A stretch of 64,000 nt of DNA from Paramacrobiotus metropolitanus (taxonomy: Eukaryota > Tardigrada > Eutardigrada > Parachela > Macrobiotidae): positions 124,001-188,000 of the forward strand of contig NW_026570300.1 of the NCBI RefSeq assembly GCF_019649055.1. The letters run 5' to 3'. Below are positions 726 through 63,141 of the stretch, one piece after another. Both the position numbers and the translations under genes were made by a program. The first letter of the stretch is position 1. Every line of letters begins with the position of its first letter. A model generated the notes under the pieces. That model had not been told where the DNA came from. It did no database searches and saw only the letters and a program-made list of their open reading frames with translations.

Positions 726-3700
726 TTAAAAAATTTCACAGGCAAACAGTACCACGACTAAGCACGTAAATAGAGACAGAAAAGACTTCGAGCCGAAAAT
801 AAATGTAGAAAGTATATTTTGGAGCGCGGTAATATTTCTTCGACGTGTAATTCTTCCTAAATATGTCAGATAAAAAGTTCCAAAAATAAACCAAACAATT
901 TCCAAAAAATAAACCAAATAATTTTCAAAAACAAATCAGTTAATTTAAAAACGACGCATTTCTAAACAAAAAATATACGTTTAATTAATACGTACCGGCG
1001 TAAAATATTTGCTCTCGAAGTCATCTCCCAGGCGGGCCAGACAGCAAGCCAGCTGATACTCTATAGTGTCCAAATCGCAGCTGGACGGGGCATCTTTGGG
1101 CACATTCGCTGCTGCAAGAGGAAGCTTGCGACGTTCACCGGATAAAACTAGGTCAGGCAGGTTAGGACGCCGGCCAGCGGGCGACACCGACCGATCCACC
1201 TCATCCACATCATCCCTGTTTTGCCAGCAATGCACGGATGGTGAGCGACTGGATGGCTCTCCTAAACATGCCAAAATTAATGTACCAATGAAACAGCCAC
1301 ACTACGAGTATAGATTCTAATTTCTAATGATGAGGTTAGGAAAGCACAGATTTAAAACCATACGAATAACGGAATAACCTTTAAGTTTTACTGGTCTTAC
1401 TAAACGCAGTTAGATGCAACTGCTACCCGGCAAGCAGAAATGCGGAAAAACGTTGAAATTTTTAACGATTATAAGAGTATTATCAATAGCAAAGCATTTT
1501 AAAAAGCAAAATCTGGCTTAGATTATTGTTGCCCTTTCTCTTGGAAATGAACTGCTTTATAGATTATGCGCTCTTTGTTAATTAGATGAATGTATCGTGG
1601 CATAATTTATCATATTCATTTTCCTTCTTAATTTCTTATCATAAATTCTGCATCTAAATCACAAAATTTTTCTTTTTCTTCACTTTTAAAATTTGATATG
1701 AATAATTCCTCCTCCGCCACAATACCCGGCAATTGCAACCAGTTTCCACCTGAGCTTGAAAATCGGTAACAATGAGCTATTAAACACACAAATATCACCG
1801 GAGGGCGGCCGATCGACCGCACGTGGCTGACACTTGGCGCCTGTCGGAACAAAAACCCGATCCGATTATCAAAAAGCGCCCAGGAAAACTTCAAAAACGA
1901 CTTTTATATTGAACCGTTTCTCCTCCAACCTGTTTGGCCAAATAGTGTGCAAACATGTTGCTAACCACCGCTCTGCTCTCTCCTCTTCTGACTCCGTTTC
2001 ATCGCTTGGCGTTGCCCATTTTTAAAGAGTTTTGCAAAATGTGTATATACTTTCCAGCCGGTTTTCAGAGTAAAAACAGCTGGTAATCATTTGCTCGTGC
2101 TGGACAGCTTGGACTGACGGGCGGGAAGACAAGACCGCCGGCATTACAAAAATTACTGTTTATTATGCGCTTTATGCACTCAAAAGTTGTAAAATGCACA
2201 TTACAACTTCACGGTTAAAAATAAAAATCGCTCATGAAATTACAGTACATACTGTTGTACGCAGACAGCAATAAACTCGAAAATTACATTTTTACGCCAC
2301 CGAAACCGATCAAATAACCGTTTTGCAACCTCCTGTTAATAAAACATCGGAATAAATTTCTCAACCTTCCAGTTAAATGCAAATGCTGAAAAATACGTTC
2401 CGGTTAATATTCTGTATTTTTCCACATTGAATAATTTAAAAATCATAAAATTTTCGAATTTTAATTGGCATAGTATTATTTGTTCTACTCTTCAGTTGGA
2501 GCACTTATTCTTCAGTGCTGGAACAGCCTAAATAAACAATTATTAACTAACGCGTATCCTGACAAATTTGTGAATGTGTGTACACGTTTCCGCTGATATT
2601 TGATACCAAATCCCTGATGCTCAGTGCGCAGCAAGTGCGTAAGCGATCAGGTGCAAAGATATATGGCGTTACGAAAACAGTTTAGCCGGCCTGTTCGTCC
2701 CCTGTTGAACATAGAGCAGTGGCTTATTGAAAATCATCTAACGCACTTATGAACCAGTGCCGGACCGTTTTAAAAAGGCTCTATTATGAACTGGAAATTA
2801 TTTCAGTCAGACCTCTTCGCATGCATACTAAACAGGTGCTGGCAACAATTTGGACCCATCAGTTGATCGTCCAACGCGGATCATCGCCCAAATAGCAACA
2901 CTTTTATCCAGCTGTTATGCGGCGATCACATTTCATAATTTGCCAATTTTCCGGATTCTCTCCTCACTTATCCGCCGTCTGTTACATAAGCAGACACGCA
3001 AACCGGCCAAGTGGACAAGATAGACCATCTGATTTCGGTTAATATTTCAACGCAAACAAGCTACCCAAAAGCACTACCAAGCTGGCCATAAAACGAGAAA
3101 TACTGAATAATACACTGCCTGAATCCATTTTTTAATATAATGTTAAATTAGTTAATTAACTTAAAAAAATTTCAGTCAAATTATTTCTGCTTTCGTTTTC
3201 ACTTTCGAGTTTAAATTTTAAAATTACAGTGTTATGAGTTGTATTTACCATACATTTTTATATTATAAACAATCGTAAATGGTACTGTAAAGCAAAAAAT
3301 AAACTAATATTGTCGGAAAAACGAAACCACTTTTTGGAAAAATGGAATGCTCTCTCTCTCTCTCTTCCACTGGAAAGTGGACTAATTTCCGCGATAACGA
3401 GACGATTTTGTCAACTGTTGATGTTTAATGCATTTACGGTGTTTGCCGAGGATAGGGATTAATCAAATAGTTAATATGTATTTGTCGATGATCGGCTGCA
3501 GTTGCGACCAAGTGGAGCCCCTCCAAGTTGGTTGATTTTGTAATTTGAACACTGCACGTGCACAAACAATAGACCTGCTCGCTCTGGTCAGCCTCCAAGA
3601 AGCCACAATTTAAAATTTGCACGCGTCGGTTTTAAATCGTCTCCGTGCTGGATGTTAATTAATTTCTCTCCGCACCACATGAATATAATCTGACAGTCTA

Positions 3701-5843
3701 AACTAAACTACCAAGTGCCAACAAATCAAGCCAATCTTTTTATGACCAGTTCACTTATTCAATCCTATTTTCAATTGTCAGTAAATTATCAATATCTGCC
3801 AGAAAGATGTATTAATGCAAATAAGTTCAATACGTCTAGCTATTCAACTGAAGCAGAAGAGGATTTAATGAAGCAGCCGGTATCATAAATACTGCTGACC
3901 TTTAACACCACCTGATTACAGCAAAAACGAGCAGCAAATTTCTGAAATTTTCCTAAGTCATTTGCGTCTGCGGCTTACATTAACTAGCAGGTGGGATTTG
4001 AGTACTAATGACAAAAGTAGAACCCGAAATATAATCGAAACTGTGCAGGCACGCACACCACACACATTCATTGACAAACAACAAGCGAAAAATAAATCTT
4101 TGCAGTGATTCTCTGACTCATCAAAGATGCAAAAACAGGGAACGGATTATGATCTCACTGAGCGTCCATCTTACAATGCCAGTGGACTCAGTCCACTAAC
4201 AAAAAGACAAAAGATCTTAGACAAGGAAATAAATCATCCAGCAAACAATTAGCAGGCAAAGCTTAATTAACACAACCCTCTCAAGCAGTCGAACAATACT
4301 GTCGCGGTGGTTGATTAAGCAACAAACCCGGCTTTTTACCGCCTCAATGACATCACAAACTCTAGCACAAGTGCGATTTTAACACGAGCGTGACAATTTC
4401 CTGAAATGGCTCCGCAGAAACCACAAAATGAAATCAGTTTTTCATATGGAAACACCGCAAATTAGAAAGAAAAGCATAAACGCGTGGCTGCGTTGCCGCT
4501 TAGTAAAACCATCAATATAGTAATCCACTAAACACAGCTTCCGGTATGTAGTCTATAGACTCTGTAAAGCAATTCCAGTTTCCAATATTATTATGATGTT
4601 GAATAATTTTTAACAAATTGTTATTAAATTCCCATCTTCAGAATTTTTCAACAAATTTCATAAAATTGTAAGAAATATTATACAATTTATCAGGCGACTT
4701 TTTAACTTGCAATCACAGAATAACGAGCCTCGAAAGCAAGCCACGCCATGCTTAAAGATTAAACAAGCCAGCGGCGACCCGGCTACTGACTGTGAAAAGA
4801 AAGAATCCGCCAAAATTCTGTCAACAGTGACATCACCATTTGGTAGAGAAATTTCATAAGTTAGCGCACAGTACAGCTGATACTACAAAAAAGCAGGCCA
4901 ATAGGAAGCCGACGACGAGTGAAATGTTTTGCATTACGCTCACATGTTACATGTGTTAACAAATCTGTCCGGCTTTTTTGTTGTTTTACTCCATAAAAAA
5001 GAGGCACAAAAAAACAGAAGCCAAACAGGACCACAGTTTCCCTACTTTTACTTCAAAAGCAATCAGTCATCAGAATGTAACAGTTGTGTACAAATTATGG
5101 CCAAAAAAACCATCATGGAAAATTCGCAAAAAATTTAAACAGTACCTTCTTGCCCATCTGATAGCTTAATTATGATAAGTGGTCGATATAAGTCTAAAAA
5201 ACGACTTGCAGTATTTTCAGATTATGACAGAAAATTTTTTTAAAACCTACTCATTACTGCAAAAAAAGTATTTTCTTGTCACGACAAAAAGTAGCCAATA
5301 ATTCCCGTATTAATTAAACTTAACTGATTAAAAAATTAAAATGAACTGACCACAACGACCATTAATTCTAGAAAATTAATACAGTATTTCCTTACCGTTC
5401 AGTCCATTCTCCAACGTCAACCGCGACGAACTGCGCAGCAGCCGTTCAAAATCCACCATCATCCCGGAACCAGCCCGGTGGCGTATCTCCTCGGGAACAG
5501 GAATGGTCAGCGGGAAGCGCACATCCGCCAGCGTCAAGGGGAAACTGAAGGCCCGGTTACGCATGCACACCACACTGCTGGCCACGGACAAGGGACGCTC
5601 CACGCTCGGGCCTTCCTCCTCGTCCTCCTCGTTGTCGAACACTTCGTCCTCCATGTCCAGATCGCTGAAATTCACCTGATCCACTAGATCATCCTCATCC
5701 CCAATGACAAACGCCTGCGATGTGGAACACTGCGCGGTACGGTAGCCGGAATCGTCGGAGGGCAGGACGCAGGAGCGGAAGGACGGGGCAGTGTAGGGGG
5801 TCAACGGTAGGGAGGACGAAGGTGCCGGGTCATCATCGGCCAT
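726..5843 (-). CDS. candidate BH3-only apoptosis regulator, 3 exons
   Basis: Proposed exons on the minus strand are 5843-5396, 1261-996 and 785-726, giving 257 residues. Phases agree at both junctions (phase 1, then phase 0). Exon 1 starts at an ATG, encodes a Ser/Pro-rich and then strongly acidic region, and ends at a GTAAGG donor. Exon 2 ends with LACCLARLGDDFESKY at residues 220-235. This has the BH3 spacing hydrophobic-x3-L-x2-hydrophobic-GD-x-F (L220, L224, L227, G228-D229, F231), very like the Bim BH3. Exon 3 adds a 19-residue hydrophobic tail that could anchor the protein in a membrane, as in several BH3-only proteins. The exon 3 acceptor is weak; without it exon 2 reads four codons to a stop. 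A 5' UTR acceptor (ttccttgcag) lies about 37 bases upstream of the ATG. Known family role: BH3 helices bind Bcl-2-type grooves and promote mitochondrial permeabilisation. No BH1/BH2 is seen. Function is inferred from the motif alone. Confidence 0.5.
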
Positions 5844-8800
5844 AGCGAAACGGAGTCAAATGTTTATCAGTCACACGCTGCAAGGAAGTAAATCAGTGGT
5901 CGGTCAGTGTTTTTTCGATCTGCAGTGTTACTGTTTTATCTGATGATTCCAATCAAGTTTGCTGACTTCTGTAAATTTTGACACGTAACCGATATAACTG
6001 CAATAAATTAATTCACAAATTTTCAATTCCAAGGAATCTCAAATAAAAAATTATATCCAGGAGAGGAGAATTTATTTTGATTTACTCAGAGCTGTCAAAA
6101 AAACGGAATAAAGGAAAATACGAGGAAATTGGCTGTCTTGAATTTCGTCGCGTTACAAACGATGAAAAATCAGATAGCGAACAAATGATAAATGGCGCTT
6201 TAAATTTGAATAAGAAAAATTTAGGCCATGCATTATTCAAAACAGCCAGTTAATGAAATCCGTGGCTATTCTCGATTTTTGCTGATAGCTGTAAATATTA
6301 GCCAAACCCTTCGAAAGCAATCGGCCATGAAATCTTCAAATCTTTGAGTTAAATCGCTTATCACGTGTGCTAAATGGAAGCGGAAATTTAGCATACCGAC
6401 TACTGCGAATTTTAAAAGCAATTAAATCCTTTATCAGTGACGAAAATTAGGTCAATGAGCGAAATGATGCTGGACCATGGCCAAACGGAAAACACAAACA
6501 AATACAGATTTCATTGAAATTCCTAAATCACATGCAACGTAGACAGATGCTGTACTCCGTGCAGAAATCACGTAATCGGTACAGGGAGACAACAGAAGCA
6601 AACACGAACACGCGTCATAAATCACGGATCCGATGTTCTGACGGCAAACAGATGCTAATGAAGCCAATAATGATTAAGTTTATTAATGAGTCGAACATAA
6701 AAGCGCATTAGAAACATTAATTAACAGAACAGATTTCAATTAGTCAAAGCCATAATTAATCTATTACAAGGTCTATCAGCCACCTGCTCTCGAAAAACTC
6801 GTCGTTTGCTGCGCCACTAAAGCCTGTCATTAATCCACTTGACTGTGAAGTATCCCTCAAAAGTGCCATCATCAGGTGCATGTAATTAAATTTACACTGC
6901 ACTGAACATTTTCAAACCTTACCATTCAGAATAAATCACGAGGAATCAAGGCAGATTAAAAGCAAACGCGGATTCATCCAACAGGCTCCAGGCACCTGTT
7001 CCAACTGGAGAACATAATACGGCGCAAGGTATTGATCTCCGTATGTGCCATCATTGAAACAATACAGACCGGGTACAGCGAGCTAATGATTCACGCAATA
7101 ATCAAGTGGCTGCGTGAAACCCCACTTCCGAGTGGATGATTATGTAAAAATGACGAGCACATCCATAAACGGATATCAACTGTCGAATAAACTTCCTTTT
7201 ATAGGGCACTTTCGGGCGAAGAGTGAGTTTGTTCCGAGAGATGTTAAGTGCAGATCAAAATTACACGATGCAATCTCATGAGGGATGAGAGGAAAGTGCA
7301 GGCCAGTGTAGACTGCAGTGAAGGCCAGAGTCGCCAGTGCGTCGGATTCAAAGAGAGGGCAAAATATTTCAGAACGGGGCTGGTTGTAGGGCGGGCGTAC
7401 TGGACAGCCAGCCAATTGAGCGTTGCAAAGCAAACAAGTGGTGACGATGACGTCAGCCGTTTTGCACTGGACAGTCGATGAGTCACCCGCGAAACTCTTT
7501 GTAGCCACTGTCCAGAGGGGTTTATTACTTTATTGCACATAAGTAAACAAACAGCGGAGATTGACCGGGCAAGTCGAAGATAGTAAAAAAGAAACAGAAA
7601 ATGGAAGATTTTTATTTATCATTTACAGTATTTTTAAGGTCATAATATTATAATTTTTAGTACTTTCAGCGTAGCATAATTTTTCTTCCATTTCAGATAA
7701 TTTTAAGGTCTTAGCACAGTGGCACATGAGAATAATAAATTCCAAATAATCAGGGCGAAAACCGTTCTATGTATTTTACGATTCTGCCACATCGAAAGCC
7801 GGAAGGCGATATTTACATTTTACAATTAGCAGTGTACAATATGATGCTAACAGCAGCAAAGTGCAACGGCTGAGAAAGCCAACCTGTTAAGGTCAGCTAT
7901 GCTATCCAAGTAATCCAACCAACCGAACAAGCCCGTTGGTGCCTTTTGGAAGGCATTAGTAAGTTAGTAACGGTTTGCAAAAGTCATAATTGTGGATAAT
8001 TTTCATGAAAAAAGAAAAAAAAACAGCAAATACTCGATGTTTTTGTGTTTTCGTTTATTTAACAGGCAAAACGTGCCTATACTGTACAAAACAAAATTGC
8101 GGAAGGTTTTGCCTATAAAAAACGAGGCTGAAAACGAGCGCCTCTTCGTCCATTATTGTTTTGCTTCTCACAATTGCTAATAAACAGATATTGATTGTAA
8201 AATTAAATATCTGTACTTGTACAATTACAGCAGCGGCAACGGCATACCAAGGTACAGTACAGTACTGAGTACCGTACGTTTACAATTCTGACAATATCGT
8301 GAAATTCGATCAGAAAATACAACTGTAGTACTATAGATACACAATTGATGCAGAACACAAGCACAAGCTTGCGCTTTTTTAATCTGTAATTCGGTATGTA
8401 CAATACATTAGACACGCAAATGTAAATAAGCTTTTTTATTTTTTATTATATATAAATATATGTACATTTGTACAAATCTTATTACGATACTGCACAGTAT
8501 ACAAATTGCTAAGTTGAGGATAATAAAATTATCTATACTGTATACACTTTTACTTTACATGAATAAAGACGTATGCAGCACAGGTTCTTGTACTCGTATA
8601 TAGGTAATTCGCCGGTTTCATGCATTACAGATCTAGAAGGTCAGTTTCAAGAAATTAACAATATCGGTCATTGTCGACGTCATTATCGTCGTCAGTTGCG
8701 TACGGTTCCCGGTTTAGTCCATATTAATGATGATATTATCTATTAGTTCTCGGTTTAGTCTATATATTATTTAGTCAATCAACTCTTCTTTGTAAACTGC

Positions 8801-14388: not shown

Positions 14389-16376
14389 TTATCCACGAAC
14401 ACGATGCCACAACTGCAGCACGCCTTCCCGTTTGGCCCAGGTGATTTTATGGCCGTACTTCACATACCATCTGCAACATTACTACACGCTTAAATTTAAT
14501 TACGATATTATGCAAACATAAATGCATACGTCCGTTGTACGAGTAAAATTTAACAAATACACTTCAAAAATAAAATAGTTTACATCATAAACACCAACAA
14601 AAATTGTTATATCCTTGTGTGTGTGATAATTGTGCATCATTTTGTATCGGTTAACTTGTAAGCTGTAAGTATCATTCATTAACGAATTAAAACGTGCACC
14701 GAAAAAAGGTACTCGAACACCTGAAGAATCCAATCAACCGCTCCCAACTTTTCAGTTAAATATCAAAATCAGTACGAGTATTAATTTCAACAGAATAAGT
14801 ACGGTTAAATGCTCAACATCATACACCAGAACACTCACATTCCGAAAAGAATGCCAGCCAGATGAGCAGCGTGATCGAAGAATCTCCACTTTAACAGGAC
14901 ACCCAGTGTTTCAAAAAGAAGGAGGGCCTTCACGGCACTGTCCGCGCTGAAGGTATACATGGGCAGGAATATTATCGACAGTCTGGAGTCGGGAAAGGCG
15001 GTGCACACGGCTGCCAGCGCGGCAATAATGGCGCCGGATGCGCCCAACGAGGGCTGCGGTATGCCGCGGAACATCTTGTTTGTTAGGCTAAAGAGACCGC
15101 TAAACAAACCTGTAAAGCATGAAAATTAACACAGATATAAAACTCTTTTAATAAAATTAAAAATTCAAAAGAAAAAAAAACATTATCAAAACAACCTGAA
15201 TACATCATTCAAAAGAAGCGCCACACTATCCAAAATAGTAATAAGCATGTGAATTTGCAATTCAAGAGGTCCCGTAAACGGATAAAATGTCAGATAACAT
15301 CTAAAAATTTATCATTTACCAAGTTTCGGTATGTAGAGTAACAAAATACGCATTAGAGAAGTTAGATAAATACACAGTCAAATTAAACAAGAGAAATACT
15401 ATGAAGTGGGAACAGGTACATACTATTCGGCATACGTATTTTACCTGCAGAGATGTAGAAGAAAAGGAACTGCTCCTGTCCGAACATGTGCATAACCGCG
15501 TCGGAGAAGCTCCAGAGTACATACATATTGCACAGCAGATGAAACGGCGCAATCTGGCTGAACATGGACAAAAACATGGGCACTCCTAATTGTCGGGCTT
15601 TAGGATCGGACAGGAAATATTTAGTCATGAACGGCTGCAGACTCCGCACTTGCCACATCATAAACACGATGCAGTTTAATGTTATTATCGTTAAAATCAG
15701 CTTTTTCCCATGGTTCTGTTCTCTCCAGAATGATTTTATCTGCAAACGCCAACTGTTTACCGACATACCAAAAATACGTACATCCATACAAAAACAAACA
15801 CTATAACGAAATAGAAAAATATTATCAAACATAATTAATAAACAAATTAGTTTTAAAACTCTTTCCTACCTTTTCTGTAATACTTTCGTTGTTTTTGGAT
15901 GATAAAGAGGGAAGCAATCCCGCAATCTTCTCCTTTAAACTCTTTCGCACTTTTTCATAATTCCAAATAACACAACCTACAAATGTGGCGCCACTAACCT
16001 AAGGAATTGTTCAGAAACCGTGAGAATTCGAAGAAATTGGCGAGAATAAGAGACAAGTACCGCAATGCAGAATCCCGTGGTCCCCAAGAGTCTTCCCGGA
16101 TTCCCTTGGAATTCCGGACCCGGAGTGACCACCTGCTTGACGCTGGTGATGCGGGGAGGCTTAGATAATGTCCGCGCGGTCCTGTATCAAATGAAGTCCA
16201 TTAGTATAAAAAACATTTCCGTTCAGAAAGCAGCAGTGACTTAACAGAATCATCAAACACACTGCATAGTGTATGCAGTATAGTGAGTATACTGAAATTT
16301 TGAAAACAGCGCACCTTCGAGCTATCGAAACGATTCCATTCTCGGCATACAGCAGCCTTCGACACAACGGATGCAT
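14389..16376 (-). CDS. PARL: presenilin-associated rhomboid-like protease, mitochondrial
   Basis: Six exons on the minus strand: 16376-16315, 16181-16061, 15998-15870, 15739-15445, 15109-14839 and 14470-14389. All phases agree and give 319 residues. PARL is an inner-membrane intramembrane serine protease that cleaves PINK1, PGAM5 and Smac among others. Residues 1 to about 30 are Arg-rich with few acids, like a matrix-targeting presequence. The conserved NMYVLWSFSD and GQEQF blocks are present. The catalytic serine is S227 in GASGA and the catalytic histidine is H285 in DHAAHLAG. The C-terminal IWYVKYGH and WHRVRG blocks align with the human tail. At 319 residues it is about 60 shorter than human PARL, mostly at the N-terminus. 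HLAG replaces the usual HLGG. It is transcribed divergently from DLAT. The family assignment is firm; exon ends were placed by eye. Confidence 0.93.
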
Positions 16377-25799: not shown

Positions 25800-25926
25800 T
25801 ACCGGTAAAATATTTCAGGCTTGGCATTTTCTGTGGTTATGTTTATGCTGCTCTCAAGCACGGGCATTTACTCGATCCCTGATTTAACCGGATAATAACT
25901 GTTTCGCCTTTTAAGTTGACTCCGAC

Positions 25927-27594
25927 ATGGGACACAGCGAGCCGGTTTCTCCAGCTCAGTTCGACCTAGCACCGTCCATCAGCAGTGTGTCAGTGAATCT
26001 GTACAATGCTGCCACCGAGCAGATACCAACGGGGAATTTAATGGTGTCGCCGCTGAGCATCATGTACTGTACGATGCTGGTGTTTCTGGGCTCCAAGGGC
26101 CAGACCCGCAACAATCTTTACACAGCTCTGGATTTCAATAAAGCGGCGAAGAATGGACAAGCCTCAAATGATGCGATCGTCGAAGCTTTTGCCGGTTTAA
26201 TGAACGCCATGAAAATTTCGGACAATGCAAATAAATCCGCGGAAGCCACCGGATCGCCGCGCCGTGGTGGTTCACGACAACGACAGGGCGATTCGCTCCA
26301 GTTGGCGTTGGCAAACGGTGTATGTGTAACTTGATTTAATTTACACAATGCATGTTATAATTAAAACGGTGATTAACATGTGATGTACCGCATTTAGCAT
26401 TTATCGCCAATTCATCATGTGCAGTTTTGTATGCGCGATGGTCGCTACAGGTGGCGCTGGGCAACGACGTAGGCATATCTAGCACAGATTGTGTAGAAGT
26501 ACTAATCAATTAAACATTTTCAAAAATTTATTAAACGCAATTTTATGCAGGTTTTTATCCGCAGTGGACTAAATTTGAAAAGCGAGTACGCCAATTTAGT
26601 GAGGACGAAACTAAAGGCAGACGTCCAGGAGAAAGACTTCAAAAACCAGAGCAACGCAGCGCGTCAAGATATCAACCGTTGGGTGGAGAACCATACCGCT
26701 GGCAAAATCAAGAACCTCCTTCCCCCAGGATCCGTCAAAAGTGAAACGCAAGCTATCCTGGCCAACGCTATCTACTTTAAAGCCTCGTGGGCCAATGCCT
26801 TTGAAACCGCCCGAACCACTGATGCCGAATTCACAAAATTGGACGGCACAACAGCCACGGTACGCATGATGCGTCAAACTGCGAAATGGAAGTATGCCGA
26901 TGACGATCGGCTGCAGCTTCAGTATCTGGAAATTCCGTACATAAACCGTGAAGCATCCATGCTGATCTTTCTGCCGAAACAGAAAAACGGTTTACGCGCA
27001 CTGGAGAAAGCGCTAACGGCGCAGGCTATGGAGGATTTAGCGGAAAGGTCATCGCGAAAATTGGTGAATTTGCAACTGCCAAAATTCAAAATGGAGAGCC
27101 AGTTTGATTTGAAAGACTTGCTGGAGAAAATCGGTGTGGAGGGCGTCTTTACCGATGATGCGGACTTGAGTGGTATCGTCAGCAATGGACCAAGACTGAA
27201 AGTCACGAAGGGTGTGCACAAGACGTTCATTGGTATGTCAATTATTGTTTTTAAAACCGAAGCGTTTACTATATTTTACAGTGAAAGAATCAATAACATA
27301 ATTATGCAGCCTGTAGTTAATTTCAGCAGGGCTGCGAATGAAAAATGCAAATTAATTTTACCGACACGGAAAGAACGTGGTTAACCTTCTATTTATTGGT
27401 TACAATTAGACATTGACGAAAAAGGAACCGAAGCGGCAGCTGCGAGTGCCTTGCAAGTGGGACGCGCGGCATCTGCTAGCCATGGGCCTAGCGAGATCCC
27501 CATCGAGTTTGTTGTCTACCATCCCTTCATCTATGCCATCCGGCATCATCCATCCAAAGCCATCCTGTTTTTGGGACGTCAGGAGAATTTTTGA
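25927..27594 (+). CDS. serpin 1, inhibitory type, 3 exons
   Basis: Exons 25927-26319, 26551-27232 and 27410-27594 (phases 0 and 1) give 419 residues. Serpins trap serine or cysteine proteases by inserting their reactive loop after cleavage. Conserved blocks present: [34 protein letters not shown], and the C-terminal HPF..AIRH..SKAILFLGR. The hinge is [12 protein letters not shown], with the small residues at P15-P9 needed for loop insertion, so it should be inhibitory. Counting from the hinge puts P1 at or next to the Arg-Ala of VGRAAS, which suggests a trypsin-like target; the assignment is uncertain by about one residue. No signal peptide is visible, so it may act inside the cell or leave unconventionally. 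An extra basic insertion ([14 protein letters not shown]) sits near the end of exon 1, in the helix C-D region, as in some clade-B serpins with nuclear or cofactor-binding loops. Confidence 0.92.
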
Positions 27595-28690
27595 CTCTTT
27601 TGCAAACATTTGTGGAATGTAATAATCGGGCTAACTGTTTGGCATCAAGGGTGTCCTGTTTCTTCGACAAAAATTGAGTATTCATCTTGACTATTTATAA
27701 AACCTTTTAAATTACGGTAGATTGAAAAGGAATTATTTCTAGCTTGCGGTAGGTTGCACTTAACGTAAACTAGATTGTGAAGGCCAAAATGTTTCCTGCC
27801 TGCCTGTATTTACGAGCTTTCCTAATACCAAATCTGCTTTCATTAAATTGTAAAATTTCTGCAACAGTCTGTATGAAGACAGTCGGAGTTAATTAGTTTA
27901 CAATCGCTATCTGCAGGCCTAGTGGTGAAATATGTAATACCTGTAACCTGTGTATTAGTAATTAGCGTAGAATTACAACCAGTACACTAATATTTACCGG
28001 CCATAAGGGAACCGTACGAGAAATATGACTCGATTACCGCAGGCTTTTCGCAGGGATTTCGGTCGATCCAGCACTAATTATAAAGAGCACATGCATACGT
28101 GTTTCGGTGGGCGTTGCATTATTTAAATACCGTAGAGGTACTTACAAGAGGTAGAAGTGAATATTTTGACAGTTACAGTAGTAATGTTTGTAATGTTACA
28201 ATAGTCCAGACTCCAGAGCAATGCTGTTTTTTTTGGATAAACAGCTGAATCCAGAATGACTTGCAGTTTGTACGGCAGGACAGCAAGTACGTTTACAGAC
28301 AGACCCACTAGTTACTGATTCTTGTTCCAGCTAACTTGCGAGTATTCATGTTCCGGCAGTCATGTTCTTTCAATCCTGACTACGGTATCTGTAGGTTTCC
28401 AGTGCGTAATACACGTTCTAGCAAACAGTTTCTAGTTTCTACTCACCGGTGCAAGAATTCCGACGATTTAACATCGATGCTGTGCGTGCATCTATGGAAG
28501 TACCGGTACGTTTGGAAAGTTGCATTTCTTCAAGACAACTGACTGTGGGCGTCATTCAGAAATCAATCCATGCTGCCTGAAACCAAAAGTCATTTCGATG
28601 CGAAGCGCTGATAAGTGCGGTTAAACGACCGACCAACTGGTAAATTACCGGTAGATTTTCCAGTTTTGCCACGAACATCCGGTTATTTTA
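27595..28690. other. intergenic between serpins 1 and 2
   Basis: No gene seen. The last 150 bases resemble the serpin 1 upstream region and belong to the serpin 2 promoter. Confidence 0.5.
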
Positions 28691-28696
28691 CTAGTA

Positions 28697-28740
28697 CACG
28701 CGAAGGTGGGACCTAAAAAAGCATCATCACCGCTATAAAT
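28697..28740 (+). promoter_or_regulatory. serpin 2 core promoter
   Basis: The same ACACGCGAAGGTGGG box as serpin 1, followed by CTATAAATA (TATA near 28733-28740), about 140 bases before the ATG. Flanking words also match the serpin 1 upstream region, showing that the promoter was duplicated with the gene. Confidence 0.5.
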
Positions 28741-28875
28741 ATCGGTCAAATTATTTCGGGTTTCTGATATTTCCGCCGTTAAATTTAATTCTTAGACGTG
28801 TCGGTCGGCGTTTACTATCTGGTATCTGGGATAACTTCGAATAACAGTTTTCTGACCCAACAAATCCGCTCCGAC

Positions 28876-30478
28876 ATGGGATCTAACGACCCGGCTTCTT
28901 CCGGTCAGTTTGATCTGACGCCGTCCATCAGCAGTGTGTCAGTGAACCTGTACAATGCTGCCACCGCTCAGATACCAACGGGAATTTAACGGTGTCGCCG
29001 CTGAGCATCATGTACTGTACAATGCTGGTGTTTCTGGGCGCCAAGGGCAAGACCCGGAGTAATCTTTACACTGCGCTCGAGTTCAGTAAAGCCGCGAAGA
29101 ATGGACAAGCCTCAAATGATGTGATCGTTGACGCTTTTGCCGGCTTAATCAACGCCATGAAAATCTCGGACACTGTGAACAAATCGGTGGACCCCACCGG
29201 ATCGCCGCGACGCGGTGGGTCATGGCAACGACAAGGCGATTCGATGCAGTTGGCGCTGGCTAACGGTGTATGTGTAACTTTATTTCTTAGAATAGTGCTT
29301 TAAAAATTCATGATGCCCAGTTATATGCAGGCTGCATAACCAGTAGTCCTACAGTCGGCGCTGGATAATGGCGTGGGCCAATTTAGCACAAATTGTGTAC
29401 TGATTAATTTAGCATTTTCAAGGATTTAATATACGCAGTTATATGCAGGTTTTATTCGCAATGGGCTAAATCTGAAAATCAGTTACGCCAATTTGGTAAA
29501 GACCAAGCTAAAGGCAGACGTCCAGGAAAAAGACTTTAAAAACCAGAGCAATGCCGCGCGTCAGGATATTAATCGTTGGGTGGAGAACCATACCGCTGGC
29601 AAAATCAAGGACCTCCTCCCACCGGGGTCTGTCGACGGCCAGACGCAAGCCCTCCTGGCCAATGCCATCTACTTTAAAGCGTCATGGGATAGTGCCTTTG
29701 CAACCACCAGTACTACTGATGCCTTATTCACAAAACTGGACGGCACAGCAGCGACGGTACGGATGATGCGGCAGGTAGCGAAATGGAACTACGTCGATCA
29801 CGAGCGACTGCAGATCCAGTATCTGGAAATTCCGTACATGGACCGTGAAGCATCGATGCTGATCTATCTGCCGAAACAGAAAAATGGCTTACGCGCACTG
29901 GAAAAAGCGCTGACGGCGCAAGCCATGCAGGAGCTGGCCGAAAGGTCATCCCGCCAACAGGTCAAACTTCGCCTGCCAAAATTTAAAGTGGACAGCCAGT
30001 TTGATTTAAAGGACATGCTGGAGATTATTGGTGTGCAGGACGTTTTCACCAACGATGCGGACTTAAGCGAAATCGTCAGTCCGTCAGTCAGCAGTGGGCG
30101 AAGGCTGAAAATCACGAAGGGTTTCCACAAAACGTTTATTGGTATGCCAATCTTTTAAACAAAATAAAAGATTTACTTTTTCTTATACTACGTACGCAGT
30201 ATGTTGTTAATCCATCCGGGATTCTAATGAAAAACGAAAATTAATTGTACCGACATGGCTAGAATGCAGTTGACCCTTTTATTTATCGCTTAGACGTTGA
30301 CGAAAAAGGAACCGAAGCGGCTGCTGCCAGTGCTTTAATAATGGGATGGGGGACATCTGCGAGTCATGGGCCTATCGAGATCCCCATCGATTTTATTGTC
30401 GACCATCCCTTTGTCTACGTCATCCGACATAATCCGTCCAAAGCCATCTTGTTTATGGGACGTCAAGAAAAGTTTTGA
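28876..30478 (+). CDS. serpin 2, frame broken by two homopolymer indels
   Basis: Exons about 28876-29267, 29449-30141 and 30294-30478. It is close to serpin 1 throughout (same start region, same basic insertion GSPRRGG, same hinge [12 protein letters not shown]). Two single-base losses relative to serpin 1 break the frame: a G run near 28980-28982, giving an early stop after IPTG, and a T run at the start of exon 2 (29451-29454). Alternatively, donor use two bases earlier would rescue the second. If both are consensus errors the product would be about 423 residues; if real, this is a recent pseudogene, but the rest of the frame is undamaged. The loop after the hinge reads [13 protein letters not shown], different from serpin 1, so its target would differ. 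A four-residue insertion (SPSVSS region) lies before the last conserved block of exon 2. No signal peptide. Confidence 0.85.
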
Positions 30479-38426: not shown

Positions 38427-38536
38427 CACTACAGTACAGCACAGCGTAACACAGACAGTGGTTACTGAGCGTCATTTTATTGCAACACCGGCTACTCGAG
38501 CTCTCCGTAGTTTTTCGAATTTGACCAACTTCTACC

Positions 38537-40006
38537 ATGTCTAGATCCATTCAACCAGGTTTTTCCGGGCAGTTGGACCTGACACCGTCCATCAGCAGTG
38601 TGTCCGTAAACTTGTACAATGCTGCAACCGCACAGACGCCCACGGGGAATTTAATGGTCTCGCCGCTGAGCATTATGTACTGTACAATGCTGGTGTTTCT
38701 GGGAGCCAAGGGCAAGACCCGGAATAATCTTTACACAGCGCTGGATTTTAACAAAGCAGCTAGGAACGGACAAGCTGCTAATGATGCGATCGTCGACGCC
38801 TTCAGCAACTTAATGAACCATATGAAAATGTCGTCGGTTGCAAATAATTCAGTGACTTCCGGCAAGCATGTTGAAATGTGGAAGCAAAGTGGGGATCCTA
38901 TGCAGCTGACCTTAGCTAATGGGGTAAGCTATTTTCGCCACAAGAGTTACTGCTTACTAGTAATTAAATTTATTAATTATTAATGTTTATTAATAATTGC
39001 CGTCTATTAGGTGTTTATTCGCAGCGGACTGAATTTAAACACCAGATACGCTACTACAGTCAGTAGTAAGCTTAAAGCTACCATTCAAGAAAAGAACTTC
39101 AAGACCAATAGCGAAGGTGCACGCCGTGACATTAACCGTTGGGTGGAAAACAACACCGCTGGGAAAATTAAACACCTGCTTCCACCAGGAGCGGTTACGA
39201 AGGACACTCAAGGTGTCATGGCAAATGCTATTTATTTCAAAGCCTCCTGGGACTCTGCTTTTGAAGAGTCCAACACGTTTAACTCGAAATTCACTCTACT
39301 GAACGGTCGAACCGTTTCCGTCAAAATGATGCGCCAAACCACAAAATGGCGGTATGCCACTGACGACAGGCTGGACATTCAGTATTTGGAGATACCGTAC
39401 ATGGATGACGAAGCGTCTATGCTGGTTTTTCTACCCAGGAAGAAAGCCGGTTTGCGAGTGCTAGAGCGAGAACTAACGGCGCAGATGATTAACGATCTAT
39501 CTAGTCGATCCAGGAACACAAAGGTCAACCTGCAGTTGCCTAAGTTTAAAGTGGAAAGCCAGTTTGATCTGAAAGCCTTGTTAGAAAAACTCGGTGTGAA
39601 GGACCTCTTCACAGATGGTTCGGATTTGAGCGGAATTGTCAGCCAGGGGCCGGGATTAAAAATCTCACAAGGTTTCCATAAAACCTTTATCGGTACGTCA
39701 GATAGGCAATATATATTAGGCATTAACTGTAAATAAATTGGCACACGCATTTTTTAACTGAATTCCCGAAATGTGTTTGATAAGGAGAGAGTATAATAAT
39801 TTGATTTTTAACGTTTAGAAGTGGACGAGAAAGGAACGGAGGCGGCCGGGGCCAGTGCTGTGATGATGGTGGAAACTCTCTCGGCCATTTTTCCTCCCAG
39901 AGTGGAACTCCCCATTGATTTTATCGCTGACCATCCGTTCATGTACGCCATCCGGCATAATCCGTCCAAAGCGATTTTGTTTATTGGACGCCACGAAAGC
40001 TTTTAG
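38537..40006 (+). CDS. serpin 3, inhibitory type, 3 exons
   Basis: Exons 38537-38923, 39011-39692 and 39819-40006 give 418 residues with intact phases. Same intron positions as serpins 1 and 2, so they share one ancestor. Serpin blocks [26 protein letters not shown] and HPFMYAIRH..SKAILF are present. The hinge is [12 protein letters not shown] (a Gly replaces one Ala), still suited to loop insertion. The loop after it, VMMVETLSAIF, is unlike the other two and would put P1 near Thr-Leu or Leu-Ser, suggesting a chymotrypsin- or elastase-like or cysteine-protease target. It lacks the basic GSPRRGG insertion of serpins 1 and 2 and is the most diverged copy. No signal peptide. Confidence 0.92.
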
Positions 40007-45296: not shown

Positions 45297-45380
45297 CGCG
45301 CCTGATCCCTTTTTCAATTTTCATGTTTCGTAAAGTATTGTTTGTATTGCTTTGGTTGTATGTTTTACGTTTCTTAACAG

Positions 45381-46052
45381 AATTTTTTGGTGTCGGACAC
45401 CAAAATTTTTTGGTGTTGGACACCAAAATTTTTTGGTGTTTTCAATTGCAGATTTTTTGGTGTTGGACACCAGACTTTTTTGGTGTCGGACACCAGAATT
45501 TTTTGGTGTTTGTGTTTCTTAATTTTTTGGTGTTGGACACCAGAAATTTTTGGTGTCGGACACCAGAATTTTTTGGTGTTGGACACCAGACTTTTTTGGT
45601 GTCGGACACCAGAAATTTTTGGTGTCGGACACCAGAATTTTTTGGTGTTGGACACCAGACTTTTTTGGTGTCGGACACCAGAATTTTTTGGTGTTTGTGT
45701 TTTTTAATTTTTTGGTGTTGGACACCAGAATTTTTTGGTGTTTGTGTTTCTTAATTTTTTGGTGTCGGACACCAGAATTCTTTGGTGTTGGACACCAGGC
45801 TTTTTTGGTGTCGGACACCAGAATTTTTTGGTGTTTGTGTTTCTTAATTTTTTGGTGTTGGACACCAGAATTTTTTGGTGTCAGACACCAGAATTTTTTG
45901 GTGTTGGACACCAAAATTTTTTGGTGTTGGACACCAGAATTTTTTGGTGTTGGACACCAGAATTTTTTGGTGTTTTCAATTGCATATGTTTTTGGTTTTT
46001 TGTTTCTTAATTTTTTGGTGTTGGACACCAGAATTTTTTGGTGTTGGACACT
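45381..46052 (+). repeat. hairpin-repeat array, copy 1
   Basis: About twenty copies of a 23 bp unit built on GGTGT-YGG-ACACC, a 5 bp stem with a 3-base loop, separated by A/T runs that often extend the stem (TTTTGGTGT ... ACACCAAAA). The loop base alternates T/C. Two recurring spacers interrupt it: tttgtgtttcttaat and gttttcaattgca. Because the unit has no stop codon in most frames, long open frames appear on both strands; they are repeat artefacts, not genes. Confidence 0.95.
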
Positions 46053-47249: not shown

Positions 47250-50200
47250 TCACGGAGCCGTGCTCATGTACTTCTCGGCATAATGCAAGAATTCAAATAA
47301 CACTTCCACGCAAATGAGCGCAATAATCATCAGCTCTAATCGAACATGGTGCTGGTTGTTCAGATGGTCACGCAACAGCTCTACCAAAGAATAACAGTGG
47401 TTAAGTTTTTCGTTGAAAATGCGTGTACGCCGACCGATGTTAAGATACGTGCACATGGCACGGTACAGTGCTTCCAAATCTTCAGCTTCCAAATCTTCAC
47501 GATCCCAGTAGAAATCAGGTGGATCCAGCATATTCGAGCCCAGATTAATGGAGTGCCGGAGGAAGAACAGCTCCCTGTTTTACGCAGCACTTGACCTTTC
47601 GACAAGCTAATCACGTCCGTTTGTTTTGATGTCCTGTTGACGTGACCACGTACAAGTCACAACAATATGAGAATCATACTAATTTCTACAATGCACAAAT
47701 TTATTACGAAGCAGTAATTACGATTCTATTTTGAAGCAGTAGTGGCAGTAGTGTGCAGTAATAGCCGCGATAATTATGAATGGAATACAGAAAGTACAAT
47801 AATTTTGAATCTATTATTGTGCTCACCTCAGCGACGTTTTCGATGGATCCCACGTATTCTTGCAGCATAGCCTCATAAACAGCCAACTTAACTGCAAAAA
47901 AATTAAATAATTTAATAGTTTAAAAACATTTTCAACTGAGAAATCGAAAATGGTAGTCGTGAGAACGATAAACATAAAGAATTGTGAACGCTTTACCAAA
48001 TAACTGCGAACACAATAAATAACACTTATGCTACGCACCAGAAAGCACAGTGGCGTCGGAAAAGGCGTATTTGATCAGACTGAGCAACTGGGGATGGACA
48101 ACCTCCATGGATTTCCGCAGCAGAATATGGCCGTCGGATGACAGTTTGGCAGCGTCTGCTGCCGACGGGACTCCTGGTCGACCACGGTACTCGTCACCAG
48201 GGCCATCCGTAAAAGAGTAGTCCAGAAATTCCGCTTCATCCTGGACAATAGACTCTGTAAACAGATAAAAAACAAAGATAAAAAAACAGATAATGTAAAC
48301 TGATAAAAAAAACAGATAAACACTTCACAAAAGTGAAAAAAAAACATAAAATACGTTATTAACGGCGAGCGAGAGCCGTTAATACGGAATTCCCTTGAAT
48401 TTCCATAATAAGGTTGGCATAATATTCAACACGATAAGATAAAGCAATCGCCTTATCGGCTGTCGCTGTTTAACATACGTGAATACGGTTTAACGGCGTA
48501 CTGCTGGAGCACTTTCAAAAAAGAGGCCGCATCGTCCTTCTTCACATTCCAGAAGACCACGGATCCTTCGCTGAAGATAAACACATCGCCCTCATTAGTG
48601 GGAGTCCGTCCGGAAGGCGGCTTCGACTGCTCGTAGAGTTTGTAGTGGACTGCATCTTCGGATAGCTTTTCGGTTAGAAACGAATCAGCCAGCTGATACC
48701 TGCAAAAAATGGACCCTATTGATATCCCGCAATTGTTGCTAAGCAATGCCCGTATGATAGCACCGGAAGTACAAACTCTAGAGAAGCAAGTAGTATAGAA
48801 TGCTGATTATTCATAGAATGCGAAAATCGCAGCACGTCAAATGGAAAAACACATTAATTATTACTGTACTGTACTGGCATTTCTGCGACTTTACCCAAAA
48901 GCAAAATTAACTGGGAAATAGCATTTTTTCATGAATGCAGAAGTGCCATAAAAAATGCACCCATATTTTATTGACGGCTCAATTTATGAGTAACTGATAA
49001 AATAACACCGATAAATTATAAACAATTCTGGCAGCTTAAAAGATGTAAAAGACTATTTATTAAGCATTTCCTGCCAGACTTACTGGTGTAAACGAAGAAA
49101 TTAGTAAGTCCCTGCCTTCTTCGGTTTGCGGATCATACACCTTGAATTCCTCACCGAAATCACAGGACACTCCGGCGAAAATGCCACACGCACCCACACT
49201 AATAAACGGGATGTGTTTACTCCCGTTCACACGTAGTGATTCATTGATAGCGATCCACAGCGATAAGGGAGTCTCAGTGGCGATCACACAGCTGAAGTGC
49301 TTTAGTAGGTCTTCAACGGTATCCTGCGACAAATCATGCTTGAAGATCTCCACCGTTACGCCGGGCTTCAGTTCCGTACTTTACTAAGGCATGCGTCCAA
49401 TCGCAGTCGTTCCTCACATCGTCTTCGGTAATGTAAAAGTTTCTAGCGAGATCCATCCAGTGGATTCGACTCCCTGACGTCTAACGAGTACGTAGCGACT
49501 CAAATATCCTAAAGTGTAACTTGCGAATTACAGGCATGGACTGCTGTCGCTGCCGTATATGGTGGCTGCCGCGCTTAAAAGCAGCTTTTAATTGTGTGAC
49601 ACAAGGTACATGCGCCATGTGGACAGTTACGTGGACAGAATTAGAAATCGACACGAATGTTGCCGTTGCCCGTTCTACACGCAGTTTCATATACTATAGA
49701 TTTCTCCGTCGTAGACGTTTGACTAAGTAAACTGTACTGTTATTTTCGTTTAAATTATTGGAAATCACCATTACTCTCTGCAACGGCGTGATGATTAATG
49801 AAAGTTGTACTTGCAGTTGGTTTCGCCGTTAGTTCGTTACGTGCCGTGACGGTTTATCTGCGTTCTTGATTGATAACGATTATGGATTCAGGAGAACCAG
49901 ACGGATTAGCGTACCATTCGGGAGTTCGGGAATGTCGTGTTATTCACCGGAAACTAGATTCTGCGGACCCCGGGCGCTCACTCATGCAAATCTTCTACGA
50001 TGAGTGGCAGCTGCACCAGAGAGCGGGGATCGACTCAGTTTTCACCAAGGTATGTTTAATTACGAGTAATTTCGCCATAATTTTTACGCCATAATTTTGG
50101 TGTCCAACACCAAAAAATTCTGGTGTCCGACACCAAAAAATTCTGGTGTCCAACACCAAAAAATTAAGAAACACAACACCAAAAAATTCTGGTGTCCAAC

Positions 50201-51144
50201 ACCAAAAAATTAAGAAACACAACACCAAAAAATTCTGGTGTCCAACACCAAAAAATTCTGGTGTCCGACACCAAAAAATTCTGGTGTCCAACACCAAAAA
50301 ATTTTGGTGTCCAACACCAAAAAATTCTGGTGTCCGACACCAAAAAATTCTGGTGTCCAACACCAAAAAATTAAGAAACACAACACCAAAAAATTCTGGT
50401 GTCCAACACCAAAAAATCTGCAATTGAAAACACCAAAAAATTTTGGTGTCCAACACCAAAAAATTCTGGTGTCCAATATTAGAAACCTTTGATCAAAAGA
50501 AACATAAAGCAATACAACAACCACAGGATTCAAAAAGGGATCAGGCGCGACGGTATGGTAGAAAAACAGCAATCATAATCAATAGAAAAACAGGAATGAT
50601 AATTATGTAGAAAAACAGCAATCATAATCAATAGAAAAACAGGAATGATAATTATGCAGAAAAACAGCAATAATAATCAATAGAAAAACAGGAATGATAA
50701 TTATGTGAAAAACAGCAATCATAATCAATAGAAAAACAGGAATGATAATTATGTAGAAAAACAGCAGTCCTATAATTGTCCCAGTATTTGGGATCACACA
50801 TACTGTTCAACGACGGCGACAATGTCAGATTGATATTCTCATCGATCTTCAGCGCATTATCCTGACTATCCTCATCCTCCTCCACGCTCTGCACGTTAAT
50901 GGAGATGAAGGCCGGCGCATAGGAGGCCCGCCGTGACCTTTGGGTCATAAACTCCCCCGGGTGCTTCGGGGAGGGCGATTTTGAACTGGGGTAGATGGGC
51001 GGCAGCATTGATGGTAAGCCGACGCGGTAATCGGAACGCCACACTCAGCCACCACAATGTCGCCGGATGTTTGGCAGTCACCGGACACACCGGTCCATTT
51101 GTGAAACTCCCATGTTTAGTGCAACATTGTCTAATAATTGACAT
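47250..51144 (-). CDS. RMND1: RMND1 homolog, mitochondrial translation factor, 5 exons
   Basis: Exons 51144-50800, 48699-48479, 48254-48039, 47891-47827 and 47633-47250. RMND1 is an inner-membrane DUF155 protein needed for mitochondrial translation. Matches to the family: GDVFIFSEGSVVFWNV, the VKLAVYE block, PPDFYWDRE, the IGRR..IFNEKL coiled region and a C-terminal hydrophobic segment (LELMIIALICVEVLFEFL). The N-terminus is basic and mitochondrial-like. Three single-base frame breaks occur in homopolymers: one G too many (plus-strand C run 50954-50958), one A too many (T run 47624-47627) and one G too few (CCC 47573-47575). With these corrected, all five exon phases agree and the product is 409 residues, against about 449 in human. 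The breaks are either consensus errors or mark a recent pseudogene; the intact conservation across them favours errors. The first donor (gtgtga) is weak but in phase. Intron 1 (2.1 kb) holds an E1-like exon, a hairpin array and a minisatellite. Confidence 0.85.
49084..49473 (-). pseudogene. ubiquitin-activating enzyme E1-like exon fragment
   Basis: Minus strand, bounded by an acceptor (gacgtcag) and a good donor (CCA|gtaagt). It resembles the first half of UBA1: MDLARNFYITEDD matches the WADLSSQFY-type block, and ACGIFAGVSCDFGEE matches the RGLFGQ.FCDFGE-type block. A +1 frame break lies between the two near 49375. No adenylation or catalytic-cysteine region is present. It sits in the sense orientation in RMND1 intron 1, so it is either a duplicated E1 piece or an exon of an alternative RMND1-locus transcript. 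Confidence 0.6.
49882..50049 (+). other. possible first exon of an unknown plus-strand gene
   Basis: An ATG opens 56 codons ending exactly at AAG|gtatgt, a consensus donor in phase 0. The peptide (starting MDSGEPDGLAYHSG) is acidic then mixed and not recognised. The donor is 50 bases before the second hairpin array. No following exon is found on the plus strand before 51.8 kb. It lies inside RMND1 intron 1 on the opposite strand. Confidence 0.25.
50096..50476 (-). repeat. hairpin-repeat array, copy 2 (inverted)
   Basis: About twelve copies of the same 23 bp GGTGT-YGG-ACACC unit, here in reverse orientation to copy 1 and in RMND1 intron 1. It has the same two spacer types in the same relative order, and its outer flank (50525-50550) is a 22 bp match, one mismatch, to the flank of copy 1 (about 45296-45318, tcgcgcctgatccctttttc). 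Confidence 0.95.
50569..50764. repeat. 49 bp minisatellite
   Basis: Four copies of a 49 bp unit beginning gcaatcataatcaatag, at 50569, 50618, 50667 and 50715. Related words (ctactgattatgactgctg) occur once beside hairpin array 1, so the unit was amplified after the element was copied. Confidence 0.9.
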
Positions 51145-51164: not shown

Positions 51165-51826
51165 TTGTACGTGTTCTTCCGAGGTTGTGAATATATCAAT
51201 GTGTTCATTTGTTTTGACCAAGCTCCTGCATAATGAGTGATTTCGCCGGTTTGCTGCTTCGGTCCTTTTGTGCTGAAGTCATTTTGTGTTTTGTGGATGT
51301 TTTTGTGAAGACGGCTCGCAGTTTTTGAAAGTACTGCTTGAAAGACAATGGTTTGCCAAGCAGTTTATCCGCATCCTGTTGATATTGAACTCTTCCACGC
51401 TACGACCTTGCTGCGTAAGGAAGTTGCCGCTTGATGGTGGAAACAGCAGGCGTACAAGTCATTTGTAAGACTTTGTGGGCTGCCGAAACAACTTGTCACT
51501 TCGCAGTATTTCGGAACCAATGATTTCCGGAATCCCGAGAACTACGGTTTTGAAAATATCAAAACTTAAATATAGGCTTATATGGGTAACTTGACAAATC
51601 GCACGAGCTATCTGACTGTGAAAAGAGTTGCACAGAACAATTATAGTACGCACTTCCTTTTCCCTAGTATTTTATCTTTACATCCGCACGTCGAAAGTAC
51701 TACGCATATCCCTTACAACTCTGGTCGTAAACAAAGGTTAGTTCGTCTTTTCAATCCTTGTCCTCATCCAATTTCGCGGATCAGCCGCCAAACTGCCTTA
51801 AATTTCATAGTTGTAGCGGCGAAAAG
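51165..51826 (+). repeat. 5' flank shared by the two intact intronless GPCRs
   Basis: This segment matches about 58000-58705 in order (agctttgtac, ttgtgaatatatca, tttgctgcttcggtc, gtttgccaagc, tgatattgaactcttc and further words), so the GPCR duplication took about 650 bases of upstream sequence with it. One edge lies next to the RMND1 start codon. Confidence 0.7.
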
Positions 51827-52816
51827 ATGGCAAACAACTCCTCTACGCATATGATAATCCCATACGCCGCTTTCGGCTGGACAGCCATAGCGATATTTAA
51901 TGTATTCAGTGCGATTTCCGGGATCTTCCTGAACAGCGCGGCTCTGTATATCATTTACCTGGATCGACAACACTTTACCGCTTTCCGCATTTATATAGTT
52001 AACCTCTTCCTTTGCAACTTATTCCATGCTACCGTAAATAAATTAGCCGCGTTACTGTTGTCGTGGAACGTTACTAATTTTCACAATCCGGCGTTGTGTG
52101 ACCTCTTTACTTTTGCCACCTCCATCATGCTGACATCCACGATGCACGCCACTCTCCTGATGACGCTAAATCGTTTTTGGGAGGTTACCTTTCCCAATTC
52201 CTATCGCTTGAAACATAAAGTAAAATTAGCGTGTGTCGCGTGTGTTATCCTGTTTCTGTACAGTCAGATTATCAGTCTCCCGGCGCTGATCATTGACTCC
52301 TTGTACTACCGTCTCCCTACTATGGTAATCCCAGTGTGTACACCCAATCAGCCAGCACAACCCAGAACGTTGGACGCCCGTATTATCCACGCGATGCTGC
52401 TACCGGAACTGCTGACCATTGGATTGTTTCCGGTAATCGTTTGGCAGCGACGGCGAAGGATTGGTCGGCGACCAGGAGCAGCACAAGGTCCGAACGTGGT
52501 CTTGCCGAGAGTGGCGACCCACTCGGCGCCCCACAAACCTTCTCGGCGGCGCTCGCCCAACAATATGGTCACCTTCTATCTAATGATGGGCTCCATCCTG
52601 GTGTGCTGGACGCCGATGACCGGATTAACGATTTCAAACTACGCTAAGACCGTTTCGGATAATCGCCTTTTTCAGATCGCTGGTCAGCTGTTCTCCTGCC
52701 AGATTATTCTTGATCCGATTCTGCTGATCATTGCCTCCGCTGTTGTGTCGAAATGGAACCAACGGGAGGAAAACGTGCAAGATGGACCTAACAATGCTGC
52801 GACCCTGTACACATGA
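51827..52816 (+). CDS. intronless rhodopsin-like GPCR, paralog A
   Basis: 329 residues in one exon. The ATG at 51827 (MANNSSTHMII) is chosen because the paralog at 58706 starts at the same place; an in-frame ATG 69 bases earlier lies in the shared noncoding flank. A short glycosylated N-terminus (NNSS) is followed by seven hydrophobic segments: TM1 near 15-40, TM2 47-75, TM3 85-115, TM4 130-155, TM5 190-210, TM6 250-277, TM7 285-310. Class-A marks: CWTP in TM6 is normal, but the DRY motif is NRF (LNRFWEV) and NPxxY is DPILLI, so it is divergent, and the TM2 Asp is absent. A basic third loop contains RRRRIGRR. The ligand is unknown; such lineage-specific, intronless, tandem receptors are often chemosensory or peptide receptors. 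At least four decayed relatives lie nearby. Confidence 0.85.
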   Translation: MANNSSTHMIIPYAAFGWTAIAIFNVFSAISGIFLNSAALYIIYLDRQHFTAFRIYIVNLFLCNLFHATVNKLAALLLSWNVTNFHNPALCDLFTFATSIMLTSTMHATLLMTLNRFWEVTFPNSYRLKHKVKLACVACVILFLYSQIISLPALIIDSLYYRLPTMVIPVCTPNQPAQPRTLDARIIHAMLLPELLTIGLFPVIVWQRRRRIGRRPGAAQGPNVVLPRVATHSAPHKPSRRRSPNNMVTFYLMMGSILVCWTPMTGLTISNYAKTVSDNRLFQIAGQLFSCQIILDPILLIIASAVVSKWNQREENVQDGPNNAATLYT

Positions 52817-57999: not shown

Positions 58000-58705
58000 T
58001 TAAGCTTTGTACTAACGTGTCCGAGATTGTGAATATATCATTGTGTTACTTAATTAGTTTTGGTCAAGCTCCAGCATATAAATGCTTCCGCAGGTTTGCT
58101 ATTTCTGTCGTTTGTACTGAAATGCGTGGGTGTTTTTGCGAAGATGAGCAGCAATTTTCTTTAGATGAGCAGCAATTTTCTTTAGATGAGAAATTTTCTT
58201 AAGATGAGCAGCAATTTTCTTTAGATGAGCAGCAATTTTCTTTAGAGACCACCGTTTGCCAAGCCGTGTATCCGGATCTCCTTGATATTGATCTCTTCAA
58301 TGCTTTGACCTTGCGCGTAAGGAAGATGCTGTTTGATGGTGGAAATACTATAGCTAGGAGGAGTACAAATATTTGTAAGACTGTGTAGGCTGCCGAACAA
58401 CCTGCAACATTGCAGTATTTCCGACCATTAATTTGCGGGATTTCAGAAACTACGGTTTTGAGGATATCAAAATTTAATGGTACTTAGACAAATCGCATAG
58501 CCGTCAGAAAGCGAAAACACCTGAACAGAACAGTCAGAATAAGCACTTTCTTTTTCCTAACATTTTACTGAAAAATACTACGGCTATCCATTATAGCTCT
58601 GGTGGTAATCCATAGTTAGTTTGTCTTTTTGATCCTTGTTTGCCTACAAATGTAACCGATCGGCAAATTGACCGCTTTTAATTTTCCAGTTTATAGCGAC
58701 GAAAC
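58000..58705 (+). repeat. 5' flank of GPCR B, homologous to that of GPCR A
   Basis: Counterpart of 51165-51826. It differs by local expansions such as the 21 bp minisatellite at 58142. Confidence 0.7.
58142..58243 (+). repeat. 21 bp minisatellite
   Basis: About five copies of GATGAGCAGCAATTTTCTTTA, the third shortened. The matching position upstream of GPCR A has a single related word, so this is a local expansion. Confidence 0.9.
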
Positions 58706-62965: not shown

Positions 62966-63141
62966 CGTAAAACATACTCTTTCGGGTTATGTATACGTAT
63001 ACCATACATTTAAACTGCAAAAGATAAAGTACTGCTTTAAAGTACAAAGTACTGCTTTTTAAAGTACTGCTTTATCTACAAATTAATGCAATACTTTGCA
63101 GGTCAAAATGTGAATGAAAAAATGTACTGCTATACTTTCAA

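Follow-up and report, generated by a model that had tools for sequence, protein, structure and literature searches.

Does the gene at the left end of this stretch of tardigrade DNA encode a protein that docks into Bcl-2 relatives through a BH3 helix, or does it carry a helix that only looks like one? The question comes from an initial annotation, which described a spliced, otherwise unrecognised protein with a BH3 motif resembling the Bim helix. We analysed this gene in a window of 64,000 nucleotides from Paramacrobiotus metropolitanus (NCBI RefSeq assembly GCF_019649055.1, contig NW_026570300.1, positions 124,001 to 188,000 of the forward strand). The best single reading, drawn from one linear motif, is that of a BH3 function: the gene product would be BH3-only-like and would bind the groove of a Bcl-2 protein with its helix, and we give this reading a probability of roughly 0.55.

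The domains recognised in the window (serpin, rhodopsin-type receptor, THAP, lipoyl, RRM, and rhomboid) are together animal-like. Three serpin-like gene copies lie in one orientation at 25915-30155 and 38525-39733; a stretch of the first copy was confirmed as Serpin (Pfam E 2.4e-70), and the other copies were judged by eye from their ORFs. Two 7TM receptor ORFs, located at 51731-52813 (Pfam 7tm_1, E 1.3e-17) and 58697-59695, are closely similar by eye. At about 10 kb from the BH3-like gene, we observed a rhomboid exon (15386-15865; Pfam E 4.3e-8), which looks like that of mitochondrial PARL. The window also contains several repeats. A 23-bp unit, CAGAATTTTTTGGTGTTGGACAC, forms two arrays of opposite orientation about 4 kb apart (45378-46051 and 50093-50476), which yield long repetitive ORFs on both strands, and a satellite-like array (63124-64000; period of 126 bp, 7 copies, 92% matches) reaches the right window end.

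For the BH3-like gene, we propose a probable model, read from the DNA sequence, with two coding exons, A and B (Table 1). On the minus strand, these exons join in frame via GT-AG sites and with matching phases, giving 238 codons devoid of any stop, which bears out the 5396/1261 junction of the initial annotation; both this junction and the end of exon B at 996 are exact. The donor of exon A, at 5395/5394, is a good one and reads AACG/GTAAGG, the acceptor of exon B TTTAG/GAG, and the donor after exon B CCG/GTACGT. Exon A encodes an acidic, Ser-rich product without known domain, and the strong acceptor located before its ATG (5843) suggests a non-coding first exon further upstream. The two exons are GC-rich between AT-rich 200-base flanks (0.605 against 0.265 and 0.32 for exon A, and 0.568 against 0.245 and 0.36 for exon B), with a GC3 of 0.745 and 0.557, respectively, and each is the sole stop-free frame of six in its own stretch. 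We also computed a codon score, for which 15 stretches of long ORFs in the window served as training set; this is a weak model, with 2 of the 15 training stretches falling below zero (-0.162 and -0.049) in a leave-out test. Exon A is coding-like (0.353 bits per codon). The score of exon B is modest (0.132, and 0.046 for its last 30 codons), barely above that of two wrong frames of the same stretch (0.116 each).

Table 1. Coordinates of the BH3-like gene and of its motif within the window (a slash marks a splice point)
Feature	Positions	Strand	Details
Likely splice acceptor AG	5878..5879	-	GATTTACTTCCTTGCAG/CGTG, 34 bases upstream of the start codon
Coding exon A	5396..5843	-	448 nt, running from the ATG to the donor; 149 full codons and one extra base, phase 1
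Intron	1262..5395	-	4134 nt, GT-AG; may hold further exons
Coding exon B	996..1261	-	266 nt, 88-codon frame; includes the BH3-like motif; phase 0 at its end
Predicted helix	1005..1064	-	Residues 216-235 (exon residues 66-85); the one long helix that AlphaFold2 predicts for exon B from the single sequence
BH3-like core LACCLARLGDDFE	1014..1052	-	Residues 220-232; all BH3 anchors filled
Donor GT directly after the BH3	994..995	-	Phase 0; last exon(s) further left, probably outside the window

Past the phase-0 donor at 995, the coding sequence probably continues into DNA outside the window. Indeed, we followed in phase 0 the 42 AGs found on the minus strand from 30 bases behind this donor to base 1, scored 16 of them, and obtained no convincing candidate for a last exon within bases 1-995. 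Fifteen of the 16 had a codon score below zero, among them a 37-residue candidate at 348 (-0.001; GC3 of 0.459), and the sixteenth is a piece of 15 residues at 282 (0.096); these two are borderline, and no candidate is claimed as the last exon. Two other candidates were rejected. The first, at 961-869, would add 31 residues, but 69 of the 93 bases concerned belong to a tandem repeat of 22-23 bp, which lies at 878-946, just behind the BH3 exon. The second, at 856-761 (EELHVEEILPRSKIYFLHLFSARSLFCLYLRA), has 32 residues, the length of the last exon of Bim; it scores -0.327 bits per codon, when stretches of 32 codons score -0.139 if non-coding and stop-free and 0.168 if coding, and its GC3 is 0.28, against the values given above for exons A and B. 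On the minus strand in 1-995, there is no AATAAA, and one ATTAAA is found at 985, 10 bases behind the donor.

The motif itself fits the BH3 pattern at every anchor, as initially annotated, i.e., h1 L220, h2 L224, h3 L227, G228, D229, and h4 F231; hydrophobic residues occupy h1-h4, the invariant Leu and Asp are both present, and Gly precedes Asp. We built a BH3 matrix and a BH3 profile from 13 known BH3 peptides. On the matrix, the motif 15-mer scores 19.15, while the 13 known BH3s range from 9.26 to 25.79 in a leave-one-out comparison, so that it beats 7 of them, and it comes out at the top of the 63,451 stop-free 15-mers of the six frames of the window. The runner-up, CSVRSKCVSDQVQRY (2618-2662, plus strand), scores 15.0, which is still more than 4 of the 13 known BH3s obtain, and is taken as a chance frame. 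The profile is sound: it retrieved 263 PDB sequences at E<=10, and among the best 60 of these 263, 59 are named as a BH3 protein or peptide and one only as 'alpha-beta-foldamer 2C'. When compared by hhalign, it aligned to residues 218-235 of exon B with a probability of 83% (P 8.9e-6, for one pair), against 1% for exon A. The protein scores 12.9 bits on the profile, a value reached by none of 20,000 of its own shuffles (best shuffle, 10.0). The motif ORF ranks first of the 1,350 window ORFs of at least 30 residues (E 0.0011; best stretch, 0.0055), the second-ranked ORF having an E of 0.0029 for the whole sequence and merely 0.98 for its best stretch. Using phmmer with peptides of 33 and 23 residues against 177,635 PDB sequences, we obtained one match each, to the BAX BH3 peptide 6wh0_B; this match is weak (E 0.54 and 0.28, respectively) and has little meaning by itself. 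One reversed and one shuffled 23-mer control gave zero matches in the same search.

The description of the protein as otherwise unrecognised was right. Pfam, with filters on, returned 0 families at E<=10 for the 238 residues, and the whole protein matched nothing in the PDB at E<=10. Orthologs, which the initial annotation proposed to seek in related genomes, were searched for in viral and prokaryote collections: exon B was compared with contig collections of both kinds and exon A with the viral one, and no relative was found, as expected there. Among the papers listed by searches of one literature library, none was on a tardigrade BH3. Two short motifs of exon A were rejected. DSGYRT (31-36) fits a beta-TrCP degron pattern, which is also found in 222 of 5,000 shuffles, and EDEVF (65-69) resembles the N-terminus of Bmf, its pattern, defined post hoc, being present in 10 of 5,000 shuffles.

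Using AlphaFold2 without alignment, we observed that the helix predicted over the motif has pLDDT block means of 64, 69, and 52, and that a second helix, of 6 residues (exon B residues 34-39), stays below 50. The pLDDT is below 50 in 55 of the 88 residues of the exon B model and in 137 of the 149 residues of the exon A model, the latter displaying short strands and helices without confidence. According to these models, the protein is probably disordered outside the BH3 helix; its charge-hydropathy value of 0.448 exceeds the boundary, at 0.446, by very little, toward the folded side. In helical moment, the motif does not stand out (rank 13 to 27 of 224 windows).

How much such a motif can carry depends on chance. 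It could be a look-alike, i.e., an amphipathic helix with LxxLGDDF in a protein of other function that binds no Bcl-2 groove. Loose BH3 patterns are worthless in this window, where they are at or below chance level: LxxxGD occurs 53 times in the six frames, when 40 simulated windows average 61, and a looser full BH3 pattern once, for an average of 2.35. A review also grants BH3 alignments little to no predictive value for new matches (PMC9171138). Strict regular expressions match once in the window, against means of 0.05 and 0 in the 40 simulated windows and 8 and 2 of 40,000 protein shuffles, and as they were composed after the motif was seen, they are not independent tests. Of 40,000,000 random 15-mers, 7 attained 19.15 when drawn at background composition and 12 when drawn at own composition, i.e., 4e-5 to 7e-5 per protein and 1.4 to 2.4 per proteome of 8 million residues. 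For this protein taken singly, HMMER yields 3.1e-6 with the whole sequence and 1.3e-5 with the best stretch, which amounts to 0.06 to 0.26 per 20,000 proteins. The motif is well above chance for this protein and borderline if picked from the whole genome. As far as is known, animals other than mammals have fewer BH3-only proteins than mammals do. Because chance should yield 0.06 to 2.4 sites of at least this quality in each proteome, to be set against these few proteins per animal, the motif alone would give about even odds. In mammals, eight BH3-only proteins are counted (PMC8998228). The balance moves toward the BH3 reading because the protein shows no further known domain, its single long helix coincides with the motif, and the exon ends, with its donor, right after this motif. 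These points, together with the simultaneous filling of all anchors, speak against a look-alike; we consider a chance resemblance to be unlikely rather than negligible.

On the other hand, the BH3 may be genuine and belong to another kind of protein, exon B then coding for the BH3 (alpha-2) part of a Bcl-2 relative with several domains, either of the BAX/BAK type or Mcl-1-like with a long disordered N-terminus, whose BH1 and BH2 would lie beyond the window. The gene extends past base 995, and because BH1/BH2 exons could follow there, the term 'BH3-only' of the initial annotation cannot be claimed, while its BH3 motif holds. Moreover, the sole PDB match comes from a multidomain protein, and GDDFE...Y recalls the BH3s of Bcl-2 and Bcl-xL. 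Such a relative would nevertheless have 219 residues ahead of its BH3 without confident helix, which is long for BAX or BAK, and no Pfam match whatever. BH1 (NWGR) and BH2 (GGW) patterns are absent from the 238 residues and from the six frames of bases 1-995. In favor of this alternative, BAX, BAK, and BOK are as a rule split into 4-6 exons (PMC8998228); in pro-survival genes, a single exon holds BH1 and BH2 along with the BH3 (PMC8998228), unlike exon B. We regard a multidomain relative as improbable. It is more improbable still that the gene model is wrong, i.e., that exons A and B come from separate proteins or that exon B is untranslated. This would be in line with an intron spanning 4.1 kb, a weak pyrimidine tract at the 1262 acceptor, a codon score that poorly separates exon B from two other frames, and a structure known here from DNA and not from transcripts; the matching phases, the sole stop-free frame of each exon, and the GC-rich composition between AT-rich flanks all argue to the contrary.

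If the BH3 reading holds, a stress or developmental signal would lead to the production or release of the protein, and residues 216-235 would fold into a helix. L220, L224, L227, and F231 would then fill the pockets in the binding groove of a Bcl-2 relative, whose arginine D229 would pair with, as in Bmf, in which Ile133, Leu137, Ile140, and Phe144 make the groove contacts and Asp142 pairs with arginine (PMC12811263). As with Bim, Bmf, or EGL-1, this docking would free or activate the machinery of cell death. By analogy with Bim, the missing last exon may carry a membrane-targeting tail.

The likeness to the Bim helix, put forward in the initial annotation, stands for the BH3 anchors, which are shared by LACCLARLGDDFE and the Bim BH3, IAQELRRIGDEFN, and it does not extend to the dynein-light-chain motif of Bim and Bmf, since [KR]xTQT is absent from the 238 residues. 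In both genes, an intron directly follows the BH3 exon. The exon lengths of Bim would place this boundary 15 residues from the central Leu and in phase 0; the exon B boundary lies here 15 residues from the central Leu, also in phase 0. The gene differs from Bim and Bmf, for both of which Pfam has models, by its lack of any Pfam match, and by a hydrophobic tail that was not found within the window. Because the dynein motif is absent, we do not file the protein with Bim and Bmf. The Bim BH3 includes LRRIGDEFN, and isoforms of Bim are described that end otherwise, without the hydrophobic C-terminus (PMC4695108). The gene might be a genuine BH3-only gene of the Bim type within an invertebrate lineage, with its post-BH3 intron at the codon and phase of vertebrate Bim, which we consider a long shot; at least one BH3-only gene would then be ancestral to bilaterians, instead of a convergent linear motif. 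As for BAX and BAK, the resemblance lies in the PDB match, TVNKEVAHCLKRIGDDLVN in 6wh0_B versus TIEYQLACCLARLGDDFES here, and the difference in the lack of BH1/BH2 in the part of the gene inside the window.

Like the protein described here, Drosophila sayonara (CG14044) comes from an invertebrate and has a single BH3 motif, which was first spotted by sequence search. In contrast, sayonara is a member of the coiled-coil family PTHR21974, its motif, LAYNLGVIGDARK, is thought to be convergent, and its activity was demonstrated in flies (PMC10107002). BH3-only proteins of invertebrates are difficult to recognise from sequence and have to be proven biochemically (PMC7022251), and they may share ancestry with the vertebrate ones or have arisen by convergence (PMC8998228; PMC10107002). 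If the motif is due to chance, it would be a further example of the weakness of BH3 patterns. A full BH3 and a Bim-like intron position in one gene would make the question of ancestry testable by gene structure.
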